From contig JAQXIY010000032.1 of the NCBI GenBank assembly GCA_029008035.1, positions 1 to 64,000 of the forward strand: DNA of 64,000 nucleotides, in the 5' to 3' direction. Under the pieces are notes generated by a model, which searched no databases, had not been told where the DNA came from, and was given only the letters and a program-made list of their open reading frames with translations. A program made the position numbers and the translations under genes. The stretch comes from Lachnospiraceae bacterium. Lineage in GTDB: Bacteria; Bacillota; Clostridia; Lachnospirales; Lachnospiraceae. Positions 1 to 59,925 of the stretch are shown here, in pieces. Each line of letters starts with the position of its first letter. The stretch's first letter is position 1.

Positions 1-725
1 ATACGACCTTTCTTTGTCATACCTCCAATTTCTATCACTCTGATCTTGCCATACCCACGCAAAGATATGATATTACCTACTGATAATTTTGCACTGTAGT
101 TGGAAATCATTTTACCATCAATAAAAACATTTTCTCCCAAAATATAATCGGTTGCCTTTGCTCTGGACAGCTTACATACCTGGGATACGAAGGCATCCAA
201 ACGGTTTGACGAGATGTTTCCCTGAGCATCCTCATATTGAGGAGTGATAGAAAGCTCCTTTGGCATAAACAGTTGTCCCATCACTTGGGTATGCTTGATT
301 TTAGAAAGCTCCTGTAGGAGATACGGGGCAATTTTTTCATGACAAAACACAAGAATGTTTTTCTCTTGAAACAAAATATCTCCTATAAGAGAACGCTCTA
401 TTCCCAGATGCATCAAAGCCCCTAACACATCCCTGTGGGATAAATCCTGGGAAAATCTATCGCTTATGGGCTTATACTTTATACAGGCAATAGGAAATTC
501 CCAATTATAATAAAGAGCATCAGGCTGGAATGCTACCATCTGACGCTCTGCACATTCATAACCGCCATACAGTGTGTAGGCTGTGGCAAGCACATCCTCA
601 CATTGATGTAGCAGGTCAATCTCATTCATATTTAAAAAATCGCTAAATAAGACGATTCCTTTCCTGTCAGCCTGATTAGATAAATCTTCAAATCTGCGAG
701 TAACAGCATAATCATCTCGATTCAT
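1..725 (-). CDS. ylmH: YlmH-like S4-domain RNA-binding protein (C-terminus at or beyond window edge)
   Basis: Reading frame from ATG (rc 723-725) MNRDDYAVTRRFEDLSNQADRKGIVLFSDFLNMNE... with S4-like C-terminus (SSNRLDAFVSQVCKLSRAKATDYILGENVFIDGK); sits next to sepF and yggS as in Firmicute division clusters. Confidence 0.85.
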   Translation of the reverse strand, partial: MNRDDYAVTRRFEDLSNQADRKGIVLFSDFLNMNEIDLLHQCEDVLATAYTLYGGYECAERQMVAFQPDALYYNWEFPIACIKYKPISDRFSQDLSHRDVLGALMHLGIERSLIGDILFQEKNILVFCHEKIAPYLLQELSKIKHTQVMGQLFMPKELSITPQYEDAQGNISSNRLDAFVSQVCKLSRAKATDYILGENVFIDGKMISNYSAKLSVGNIISLRGYGKIRVIEIGGMTKKGR

Positions 726-727
726 TT

Positions 728-1291
728 CTAGAAACCTGTCTGAATTCCTGAAAAATCGAAAGCGTCTACAATCCCCTGTAAATCTCCTGAAATGTCTACA
801 GAAGCAGGTGTGATAATAAAGATATAGTTACTTACCTTTTGTAGATTACCATCAATGGCATAACAAGAACCTGAGGTAAAATCAATGATTCTTTGAGCCA
901 GTCCCAAATCCAGACCTTCCATATTTAAAATTACGGTACGATCTGCCAACAATGTCTCTGAAATCTCCCTTGCATCCTCAAAGGAAGATGGCTTAATTAC
1001 ACATACTTCCATACTAACGCTATTCCCCTTTCTGCCACCTCTCATTGGTGTTATCTTTGGTGATGGCTTAGCCACAGGGCGTTCCTTCGCTGGAGCTGCA
1101 GCACGTGGCGCTTTCTCCACAGGTTCATCATCTATATCCTTTTTCTTTCCAAACATATGGAAGATGGATTTGGACTCGTCGTCGTAGTCATCGTCATCAT
1201 CGTACTCATCATCGTACATCTCGTCATCATAATATTCTTCATCATCTTCCGGAAGCTTCATTACATCCAACATACGATCAAAAAATGCCAT
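728..1291 (-). CDS. sepF: Cell division protein SepF
   Basis: C-terminal SepF domain (EVCVIKPSSFEDAREISETLLADRTVILNMEGLDLGLAQRIIDFTSGSCYAIDGNLQKVSNYIFIITP); AAGGAG 7 nt before the second ATG, so start set to 1291. Confidence 0.93.
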   Translation of the reverse strand: MAFFDRMLDVMKLPEDDEEYYDDEMYDDEYDDDDDYDDESKSIFHMFGKKKDIDDEPVEKAPRAAAPAKERPVAKPSPKITPMRGGRKGNSVSMEVCVIKPSSFEDAREISETLLADRTVILNMEGLDLGLAQRIIDFTSGSCYAIDGNLQKVSNYIFIITPASVDISGDLQGIVDAFDFSGIQTGF

Positions 1292-56160: not shown

Positions 56161-56385
56161 ATGAGTGACCTAGTTGCAACAAACTGTGGATGTGGTGATA
56201 GAGACAACAACTGTTGTAGTTCTATTATCTGGATCATCTTGCTTCTCTGCCTGTGCGGCAATTCCGGCAGCACCTTCTCCGGTGACGGCTGTGGATGCGG
56301 CGGCGGAAACAACAGCTGTATCTGGATTATCTTGTTGCTGCTCTTCTGTGGCGGCTGCGACTCCGGATGTGGTAGCATTTTCTAA
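56161..56385 (+). CDS. Small Gly/Cys-rich protein (chorion-class high-cysteine type)
   Basis: MSDLVATNCGCGDRDNNCCSSIIWIILLLCLCGNSG...GCGCGGGNNSCIWIILLLLFCGGCDSGCGSIF; AGGAGG RBS. Confidence 0.8.
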   Translation: MSDLVATNCGCGDRDNNCCSSIIWIILLLCLCGNSGSTFSGDGCGCGGGNNSCIWIILLLLFCGGCDSGCGSIF

Positions 56386-56635: not shown

Positions 56636-56971
56636 ATGGAAAACGAAACATTATCTCTATACGATAACAGATTACAGAGCAAAGAAATCAGTATTTTAAA
56701 AACCATTCTACCCTACTTAAACCCCACATCTCAGAAAAATATTTCCATGATAATCTCCTATATGCAACTGCAAAAAACCATGGAATTTTTTGAAAATCCG
56801 GAGAACACCATGCAAATTGTGGCTATGGAAAAAAAAGATAACGCAGCTGACATTTTAAATGCCATCAGAGTCCACTGCAATCAGCAGGAGCAGCAGCAAA
56901 TTGACCACCTGTTACACGCATTACAGATGGTATCCACCTACGAAATTCTATTTAACGGAGGCGCAGAATAA
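56636..56971 (+). CDS. Uncharacterised small helical protein A
   Basis: 111 aa; abuts the next ORF (stop at 56971, next ATG at 56972); no clear RBS at the annotated ATG. Confidence 0.65.
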   Translation: MENETLSLYDNRLQSKEISILKTILPYLNPTSQKNISMIISYMQLQKTMEFFENPENTMQIVAMEKKDNAADILNAIRVHCNQQEQQQIDHLLHALQMVSTYEILFNGGAE

Positions 56972-57250
56972 ATGGATAACTCTTTTCTCAATAACCCCTT
57001 ATTTCAAACTATTCCGCCGGAAAAGCAGGCATTTCTCAAAAATTTTGCCAGTCAAACCCCATCGGATAATCCAAATGATTTGGCAAATCAGCTCTCCTCT
57101 GCCGCAATGTCCGCCAAATCTCAAGGGCTATCTTTTTCCGATGCGGAGACTGCTCTTCTCATCAACATATTAAAGCAAAATATGTCCCCGGCAGAACAGC
57201 AAAAAGCAGATCGAATTATACAATTAGCTAAAACATTCAGACCACATTGA
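56972..57250 (+). CDS. Uncharacterised small helical protein B
   Basis: 92 aa; GGAGG RBS inside the end of the upstream ORF (AACGGAGGCGCAGAATAAATGG). Confidence 0.75.
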   Translation: MDNSFLNNPLFQTIPPEKQAFLKNFASQTPSDNPNDLANQLSSAAMSAKSQGLSFSDAETALLINILKQNMSPAEQQKADRIIQLAKTFRPH

Positions 57251-57257
57251 TAGTCAC

Positions 57258-57399
57258 GGGGCTATATAATAAACAATACTTTGTAGGGCACGCTTTCGCT
57301 ACTGCTCGCTGGTAACGGTACATAAGATGCCACTATCGTGCCATCAAGTACCGACCGCTCGCAAGTACCCCACAAAGTATATGTGTATTACATAGCCCC
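57258..57399. repeat. 142-bp structured inverted-repeat element (MITE/REP-like or structured RNA)
   Basis: Arms 57258-57288 and 57368-57399 pair over about 31 nt; inner stems CGGTAC (57316-57321)/GTACCG (57348-57353) and GATGCCAC (57326-57333)/GTGCCATC (57338-57345). Confidence 0.8.
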
Positions 57400-57442
57400 T
57401 TACCATGAAAAGGGTAAATCAAAGTATAACTATGGCACAAAA

Positions 57443-57477
57443 AAGTGGAATTCCCCCAACAAGGGCGAATTCCACTT
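57443..57477 (-). terminator. leuS rho-independent terminator
   Basis: Minus strand AAAGTGGAATTC-gcccttgttggggg-GAATTCCACTTTTTT. Confidence 0.88.
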
Positions 57478-57498
57478 TATACATATTACCTATTTATT

Positions 57499-59925
57499 TT
57501 ATTTGGCAACGATATTGATAATCTTGCCCGGCACATAAATTTCCTTAATGATGTTGCCGGTCAGCTTGTCACCCAAAGCTTCCTTGCCGGCAGCAAGAGC
57601 ATCATCCTTAGACACATCCTTGGGAAGAGAAACAACGGCTCTTGTCTTGCCGTTCACCTGAACAGCAATCTCAATCTCGTCATCCTCCATGGCCTTCTCG
57701 TCGTATTCCGGCCACTGTGCGGTAAAGACAGACTCCTCATGACCTAATGCTTCGTATAACTCCTCACTGATATGAGGTGCAAATGGTGCCAAAAGAACAA
57801 CAAAGGTCTCCAATGTCTTCTTATCAACGCTGTTGGACTTCGCCATATCACATAGTTTGTTGTTGTGCTCCATAAAGGCAGAGACAACCGTGTTCAAGCT
57901 GAAGGACTCCAAGCGAGTTGTGATATCGTATGCCAGTCGATTTCGCTCCTTAATGGTTTCTTTGGTCTCAGGAGCGTTGTCATCCTTATGATCCATTACA
58001 AGATTCCAAAATCTGGTAAGGAAACGGTAGATACCATCCATACCACGATCATCCCAAATGGAATCCAATTCCGGTGGTCCGATAAACAACTCATACAGAC
58101 GAAGGGAATCACAACCATAATCCCTTACGATATCATCCGGTGATACAATGTTGCCAAGGGACTTGCTCATCTTGGTAGCCGCACCGGTTTCTTTGTCACG
58201 ACCGCAAACCATTCCCTGATTAAACAGTTTCTTGAATGGCTCCTCAAAATCAATTACACCGATATCGTATAAGAACTTGGTGTAGAAACGGGAATACAGC
58301 AAATGCAACACCGCATGCTCCACGCCGCCAATGTACATATCCACCGGCAAATACTTTTCTGCCTTTTCCTTGGACACCAGTGCTTCGTCATTCTTGCTAT
58401 CCACATAGCGGAGGAAATACCAGGAAGAACCAGCCCACTGTGGCATGGTGTTGGTCTCTCTCTTTGCAGGCTTACCACAGCATGGACAAGTGGTGTTTAC
58501 CCAATCGGTGATAGCCGCCAGCGGTGACTCTCCTGTGCCTGTAGGCTGATATGACTCAACCTCCGGCAACAGCAAGGGGAGTTCTTCTTCCGGTACGGGA
58601 ACAGCTCCACAATCCGGACAGTGAACAATCGGAATCGGCTCACCCCAGTATCTCTGTCTGGAAAATACCCAGTCACGCAACTTGTAGTTGGTGGTCTTCT
58701 TTCCGTAGCCCATCTTCTCAATCATAGCAGGGGCTTCTTTCTTAAGCACAGAAGACTCCATACCATTCCATTCACCGGAGTTAATCATGGTGCCGGAAGC
58801 CTCTGTGTAGGCCTCTGTCATATTCTCAATTTCCTTGCCATCCTTAGCGATAACCTGAATAATCGGAATGTCAAACTTCTTGGCAAACTCAAAGTCTCTA
58901 TCATCATGGGCCGGTACACACATAATGGCACCTGTACCATAGTCAGCCAATACATAATCGGAAAGCCAGATAGGAACCTTTGCTCCATTTAACGGATTGA
59001 TAGCATAACTTCCTGTAAATACGCCGGTTTTCTCCTTATCCTGCAAACGATCAACGGAAGACTTCAGAGAAGTCTGATAAATATAATCCTCCACAGCAGC
59101 GGCTGTCTCTTCTGTTGCAAGTTCCTTCGCCATTGCATGCTCCGGAGCCAGCACCATAAAGGTGGCACCATATAAGGTATCCGGTCTGGTGGTATATACG
59201 GTAATCTCTTTATCACTGTTCTCCACCTTAAAGTTAACCTCAGCGCCGTAACTCTTGCCAATCCAGTCGGACTGCATCTTCTTAACCTTCTCCGGCCAAT
59301 CCAATGTGTCTAAATCATCTAACAGCCGGTCCGCATATGCTGTAATCTTAAGCATCCACTGTTTCAGATTCTTCTTGGTAACATCAGCGCCACAGCGCTC
59401 GCACTTACCGTTGACCACCTCTTCGTTGGCAAGTCCTGTCTTGCAGGAAGGACACCAGTTAATGGGCATCTCCTTCTGATATGCCAGTCCCTTCTTAAAC
59501 ATCTGAACAAAAATCCACTGTGTCCACTTGTAGAAAGCAGGGTCTGTGGTATTTACTTCCATATCCCAATCATAGATAGCTGCAATCTCGTTGATCTGAC
59601 GCTTAATATTTGCCACATTCTTGGCTGTGGAATCCGCCGGGTGAACTCCCATCTTAATGGCATAGTTCTCTGCGGGAAGTCCGAAAGCGTCCCATCCCAT
59701 TGGATGAATCACATAATAGCCGTGCATTAACTTGTAACGACTCCATACATCTGAAATGACATATCCCCGCCAATGTCCTACGTGCAAACCATTTCCGGAT
59801 GGATATGGAAACATATCCAGGCAGTAATACTTTTCTTTCTTGCCGTCATCCACATTGATTGGATGTTCCTCCCAATGCTTTCTCCACTTTTTTTCAACCA
59901 CTCTGTGATTGTATGGTACTGACAT
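57499..59925 (-). CDS. leuS: Leucyl-tRNA synthetase
   Basis: [53 protein letters not shown]. Confidence 0.98.

Follow-up and report, generated by a model that had tools for sequence, protein, structure and literature searches.

The window analysed here, a stretch of 64,000 nucleotides from a Lachnospiraceae bacterium, carries at positions 57258-57399 an inverted repeat that is real by direct check of the sequence and is built as the first-pass annotation had described it (Table 1). Both inner stems named there, GGTAC/GTACC and, on the minus strand, GATGGCAC/GTGGCATC, are present, as is the motif GCGAGC, whose two copies pair with each other as one segment of helix P2 with tandem G.A mismatches, and the 142-base hairpin indeed contains neither an ORF of note nor a T-run. 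An apparent intrinsic terminator (57439-57478; a strong inverted repeat followed by a T-run) lies just past leuS on the minus strand, before the element. Because the copy sits beyond this apparent terminator, its minus strand may escape leuS transcription. On its other side, two overlapping small ORFs of 111 and 92 aa occupy 56636-57250. The start of the second has a Shine-Dalgarno sequence, and neither ORF gave a Pfam match above the family cut-off. The ORF that ends at 57250 is a weak gene call: its codon score is negative, and the Shine-Dalgarno sequence and the overlap with the preceding ORF were seen directly. Further away, at 56161-56385, a short ORF rich in Gly and Cys contains an internal repeat of the segment IIWIILLL.

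Table 1. Coordinates of the element, its parts and the adjoining genes in the window
Feature	Position	Strand	Remarks
Whole element, F strand	57250..57407	(-)	covariance model R2, model positions 1-159
5' arm of F strand, GGGGCTATGTAATACACATATACTTTGTG, locus-specific sequence	57371..57399	(-)	
3' arm of F strand	57258..57285	(-)	pairs with 5' arm, including two G-U and zero A-C
Conserved 85-nt core, GGGTAC...GTGCCC, three-way junction	57286..57370	(-)	
Helix P2, 5' strand, GCGAGCGGTCGGTAC	57348..57362	(-)	
Helix P2, 3' strand, GTACCGTTACCAGCGAGC, tandem G.A and 2-nt bulge	57304..57321	(-)	
Apical hairpin GATGGCACGATAGTGGCATC	57326..57345	(-)	varies among copies, changes compensated
Junction hairpin GC-GAAA-GC with GNRA tetraloop	57292..57299	(-)	loop is GNRA in almost every one of 76 copies
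leuS (leucyl-tRNA synthetase)	57499..59925	(-)	Pfam tRNA-synt_1_2, E 8.9e-69; upstream on F strand
Small ORF	56972..57250	(+)	stop codon 8 nt from F 3' end; gene-proximal side, antisense configuration

The minus strand of the window, hereafter the F strand, folds at -82.9 kcal/mol over 57250-57410, compared with -43.9 kcal/mol for shuffled sequences (z -10.2; none of 200 shuffles was as low), and the plus strand of the same interval folds at -58.4 kcal/mol (z -6.5). In the predicted RNA fold, a three-way junction closes a long stem, and the parts follow one another along F as 5' arm, GGGTACTT, P2 with its apical hairpin, the GC-GAAA-GC hairpin, GTGCCC and 3' arm. The claimed asymmetry between the strands, by which substitutions between the arms become G-U wobbles on the minus strand and A-C mismatches on the plus strand, holds for the arms of this copy. 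It is the sole covariance-model match within the window (123.9 bits, E 6.5e-28).

The element is one of many. BLASTN gave 15 matches in the window's genome, nearly all confined to the 85-nt core, and the arms of these copies differ in sequence at every site, yet are complementary at every site; for example, the core of the window copy is 94-95% identical to that of copy L002, the arms of which are unrelated. We place the number of copies in this genome at about 17-20 (about 20 with the covariance model). One congener has 17 BLASTN matches, a second carries a diverged subfamily with 14 covariance-model hits, and two others have zero copies by the same model. Across Lachnospiraceae, 91 of 299 genomes contain members of the family according to the covariance model, the hit counts for many of these 91 being lower bounds. 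In an order-level sample of 295 genomes, 30 matched, all of them Lachnospiraceae, and no members were found outside this family. A 40-nt core pattern run over GTDB genomes found at least 120 stretches; among the matches listed, nearly all are titled Lachnospiraceae, including Coprococcus catus, Anaerocolumna, Butyribacter, Blautia and Acetatifactor, and the few MAG titles that name other groups may be mislabelled. Nearly all of the 70 pattern loci tested are full-length members, as are the only two matches on viral contigs, and the plasmid and phage collections searched gave zero matches. The element is present in about a third of the sampled Lachnospiraceae genomes, cultured gut species included, often in at least 10 copies per genome that adjoin housekeeping genes.

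All 76 aligned copies share the three-way-junction core and closing arms of about 28 bp, the sequence of which is free and the complementarity of which is kept. Double-sided changes occur in 31 of 45 pairs in an RNAalifold analysis of 34 copies, a count from a MAFFT-based alignment without the bias of the larger one, and in 43 of 45 pairs, with 94.8% of cells paired, in the 76-copy alignment, which was fitted to the covariance model and whose counts lean toward structure. On every measure, none of 500 shuffles of the 76-copy alignment reached the observed value, and slid controls gave 30-41%. The loop of the small hairpin is a GNRA variant (GAGA, GAAA, GCAA, GGAA, GGGA or GCGA) in nearly all copies, and a bulged base is frequent in the 5' arm. 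No Rfam family was found at the element at the gathering cut-off, nor at E values up to 10 in eight loci. Multiple copies and covarying pairs speak against the chance palindrome that the first-pass annotation had considered, and both halves of its reading, a dispersed element and a structured one without a match to any known RNA family, are borne out.

The first-pass annotation also took the mismatches between the arms as a hint of selection on a minus-strand transcript. A symmetric count of arm mismatches agrees in the window's genus (32 G-U on F vs 7 A-C, p 7e-5), whereas in the rest of the family the excess does not reach significance alone (24 vs 15). In the paired columns of the model, G-U exceeds A-C by 80 to 26 in the arms and by 122 to 9 in the core, the latter coming mostly from three wobble-rich pairs (19 vs 9 without them). 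Because of the GNRA loop, the conserved U.G pair and the preponderance of G-U over A-C, we regard F as the strand that folds. It is kept as a folded single strand, and these marks fit RNA and single-stranded DNA alike.

Empty sites in close relatives establish that the element is inserted DNA. At one clean site, a 183-nt insert, composed of a 40-nt AT-rich 5' tail, the hairpin and CCCC and lying between TTTAAACC and AAAAAGAAAGG, is exactly missing from a relative of 92-94% identity, and this site of the TIR-less form has no target duplication. A second presence/absence site (L144) has an insert of about 280 nt with indistinct ends, and at the feoB and manC-like loci divergence is so great that the empty sites leave the ends undefined. 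Where two species carry the element at glyS and prfB, congeners show short gaps without it, and upstream of prfB in the window's genome (L343) the remnant of an older 5' arm precedes a complete, newer element whose arms differ. In two genera, the hairpin itself forms part of a MITE: in G152, G246 and others, it lies within a unit of about 210 bp that has the TIR AGGCnnTTGCGAAACTC and is mostly flanked by TA at either end, with closely similar copies in G152 and G246. These two genomes (for example, L098-L105 and L113-L117) hold MITEs with this TIR of about 64, 208, 260 and 345 bp, only some of which carry the structured hairpin. In G041 (L106-L112), two opposed hairpins, with identical arms around strongly different but compensated cores, lie in a near-identical multicopy unit with the TIR CTGTAGATTAAA. 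The window copy has zero TIRs, and AGGCnnTTGCGAAACTC is absent from its genome except for possible remnants. No autonomous partner was found for the TIR-bearing copies, and no transposase could be tied to the element. The family is short, non-coding, multi-copy and inserted, as MITEs are, and the MITE-like part of the early reading is upheld by the empty sites and by carriage inside a MITE in other genera.

Cores and arms evolve separately. Six sites are common to two species (ksgA, prfB, rumA, mntP, glyS and a transporter gene); at shared sites, cores are often closest to copies of the same genome, and arms can be unrelated at the same site. In two close species, the copies at one site (L149 in G265 and L162 in G359) have an identical core and wholly different, complementary arms. 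Core-confined gene conversion together with turnover is the simplest account of this pattern. Copies also have a polarity relative to genes: of 103 TIR-less copies, 84 have the F 3' end as their gene-proximal end (median gap 30 vs 124 nt; p 6e-11, an approximate value because gene calls came from a codon-usage script of our own and orthologous sites are among those counted). This polarity holds for start codons (sense copies) and stop codons (antisense copies) and is not seen for the 14 copies in MITE-form genomes; part of it arises because the inserted unit has a 5' tail. Among close pairs, counted over the match lists, about 19 independent ones face outward and 0 face inward. Coordinated rewriting of two arms at one site, combined with a fixed gene-proximal polarity, is unusual and directly testable.

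The orientation of the copies relative to genes differs between the window's genus and the other genera. In two genomes of the former (G000 and G003), 23 of 26 called copies are codirectional with both flanking called genes, a count that includes the window copy only because the small ORF remained uncalled. Sense copies typically lie 20-60 nt before start codons, among them those of glyS, proS, ksgA, truA, rumA, prfB, mntP and cbiM. Outside this genus, copies occur in both orientations, many of them antisense beside stop codons. Some 5' tails, such as those at the prfB and glyS sites, look like good promoters, but over all sites promoter matches show no clear excess over shuffles. Two other features were seen near copies: an FMN riboswitch (Rfam RF00050, E 6.5e-21) at 674-821 (-) of L005, and, in G348 (L133-L141), another dispersed repeat, TGTGCAATTTGGGnCTGTCCCC, which recurs beside the elements.

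Taking these observations together, we consider it likely that the window feature is a copy of a non-autonomous, MITE-like family of Lachnospiraceae that is kept as a folded strand and acts through leader and trailer hairpins of mRNA. The first-pass annotation had offered a dispersed MITE/REP-like element and a structured non-coding RNA as alternatives, and the feature is both a dispersed mobile element and a conserved structured nucleic acid. The unit, of about 150-180 nt, consists of one long hairpin and, in some insertions, an AT-rich 5' tail. A trans-acting transposase would recognise the folded core or the ends, and the element would insert into short intergenic gaps and survive where promoter and gene stay unseparated. 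A sense copy, co-transcribed with the neighbouring gene, would form a stable leader or intercistronic hairpin ahead of the start codon, whereas the complement of an antisense copy would form a trailer hairpin past the stop codon. The ERIC and NEMIS repeats suggest, by analogy, that such hairpins would change the processing, half-life or stability of the neighbouring mRNA, and an effect on the processing of the messages of neighbouring genes is probable. In the window copy, the plus-strand hairpin would be the trailer of the small ORF that ends at 57250, with F running on the leuS strand past the apparent leuS terminator.

The marks on the F strand could also have their origin in transposition, if a transposase or recombinase reads F as folded single-stranded DNA, as in IS200/IS605- or attC-like systems, and the fold serves mobility only. 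A GC-GNRA-GC hairpin is very stable in DNA too, the clean insertion site lacks a target duplication, and the marked strand, the frequent bulge in the 5' arm and the outward-facing pairs resemble strand-specific recognition. We nevertheless regard this explanation as somewhat unlikely, as no associated transposase gene was found, the TIRs and TA duplication of the MITE forms are those expected for DDE enzymes, and the conserved U.G pair and the excess of G-U fit RNA at least equally well. If instead the element were a cis-regulatory RNA class, riboswitch-like or a protein-binding leader, steering a regulon rather than moving, the codirectional copies of the window's genus with their typical distance to start codons, the six sites common to two species and the conservation of the core sequence in place would be accounted for. 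However, the target genes share no theme, two congeners lack copies, many copies in other genera are antisense beside stop codons, and the hairpin is also found within a MITE, all of which makes this a distinctly improbable reading.

We consider it very unlikely that the copies simply serve at gene ends as insulators or intrinsic terminators. Antisense copies do form long hairpins straight after stop codons, and some copies have A-runs before the 5' arm, that is, T-runs on the gene strand; however, among 37 antisense copies from genera other than the window's, only 8 have such a run of at least 4, which is too rare for intrinsic termination, and the window copy has none. In addition, sense copies sit within operons, before start codons, and termination has no need of an elaborate conserved core. 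We give even less credence to a palindrome kept perfect by template switching of DNA, with the fold unselected: the arms are mostly Watson-Crick paired (897 of 1010 ungapped positions) and can change jointly at one site, which speaks for it, but the covariation of the three-way core, the GNRA loop and the strand asymmetry are left unexplained.

Beyond the reading as MITE-like leader and trailer hairpins, we tentatively suggest, as a possibility that we do not favour, that the family represents a new class of mobile RNA element, in which a folded core recognised by a protein in trans is inserted or retained only with its 3' end toward a coding region, the arms are rewritten locus by locus, the cores are exchanged between copies and leader and trailer hairpins are seeded throughout the genome. 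If the elements do act on mRNA, gene control in dominant gut bacteria would include a layer that is widespread yet unannotated.

The papers searched give no account of the element, and the family is apparently undescribed. The bcr1 repeats of the Bacillus cereus group, which are dispersed, mobile and structured Firmicutes repeats of about 155 bp, resemble it in size, dispersal, mobility and structure. They belong to a different host group, and the present family has locus-specific arms. REP/BIME sequences are extragenic palindromes tagged with GTAG and CGTC (PMC3733652) and share high copy number, frequent opposed pairs and a location near gene ends with our element; however, REPs are 20-40 bp long with an unpaired tag, whereas the element is 150 nt long with a junction. 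Its core CGTC is paired inside helix P2, and we rejected a REP-tag reading (CGTC, GTAG) on that ground. The TIR-bearing units of G152 and G246 are similar to TA-flanked MITEs of the Tc1/mariner-IS630-like type, from which the window's genome differs in lacking their TIR apart from the possible remnants. Closest in presumed action are ERIC/IRU (127 bp, Enterobacteria) and Correia/NEMIS (Neisseria), for which changes in the processing or stability of mRNA have been reported, orientation-dependent in the case of ERIC; their transcripts affect mRNA stability or have been proposed as substrates of RNase III (PMC2229807). Like the present family, they are small, non-autonomous, dispersed intergenic elements of 100-200 bp that form long RNA stem-loops, in their case often co-transcribed. 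They are probably unrelated in sequence and belong to another host phylum; unlike them, our family has a conserved three-way junction with a GNRA loop, variable arms, mostly no TIRs and a gene-proximal F 3' end. It would seem to be a new family, absent from Rfam, that is probably akin in action to known structured MITEs and belongs to none of those tested.
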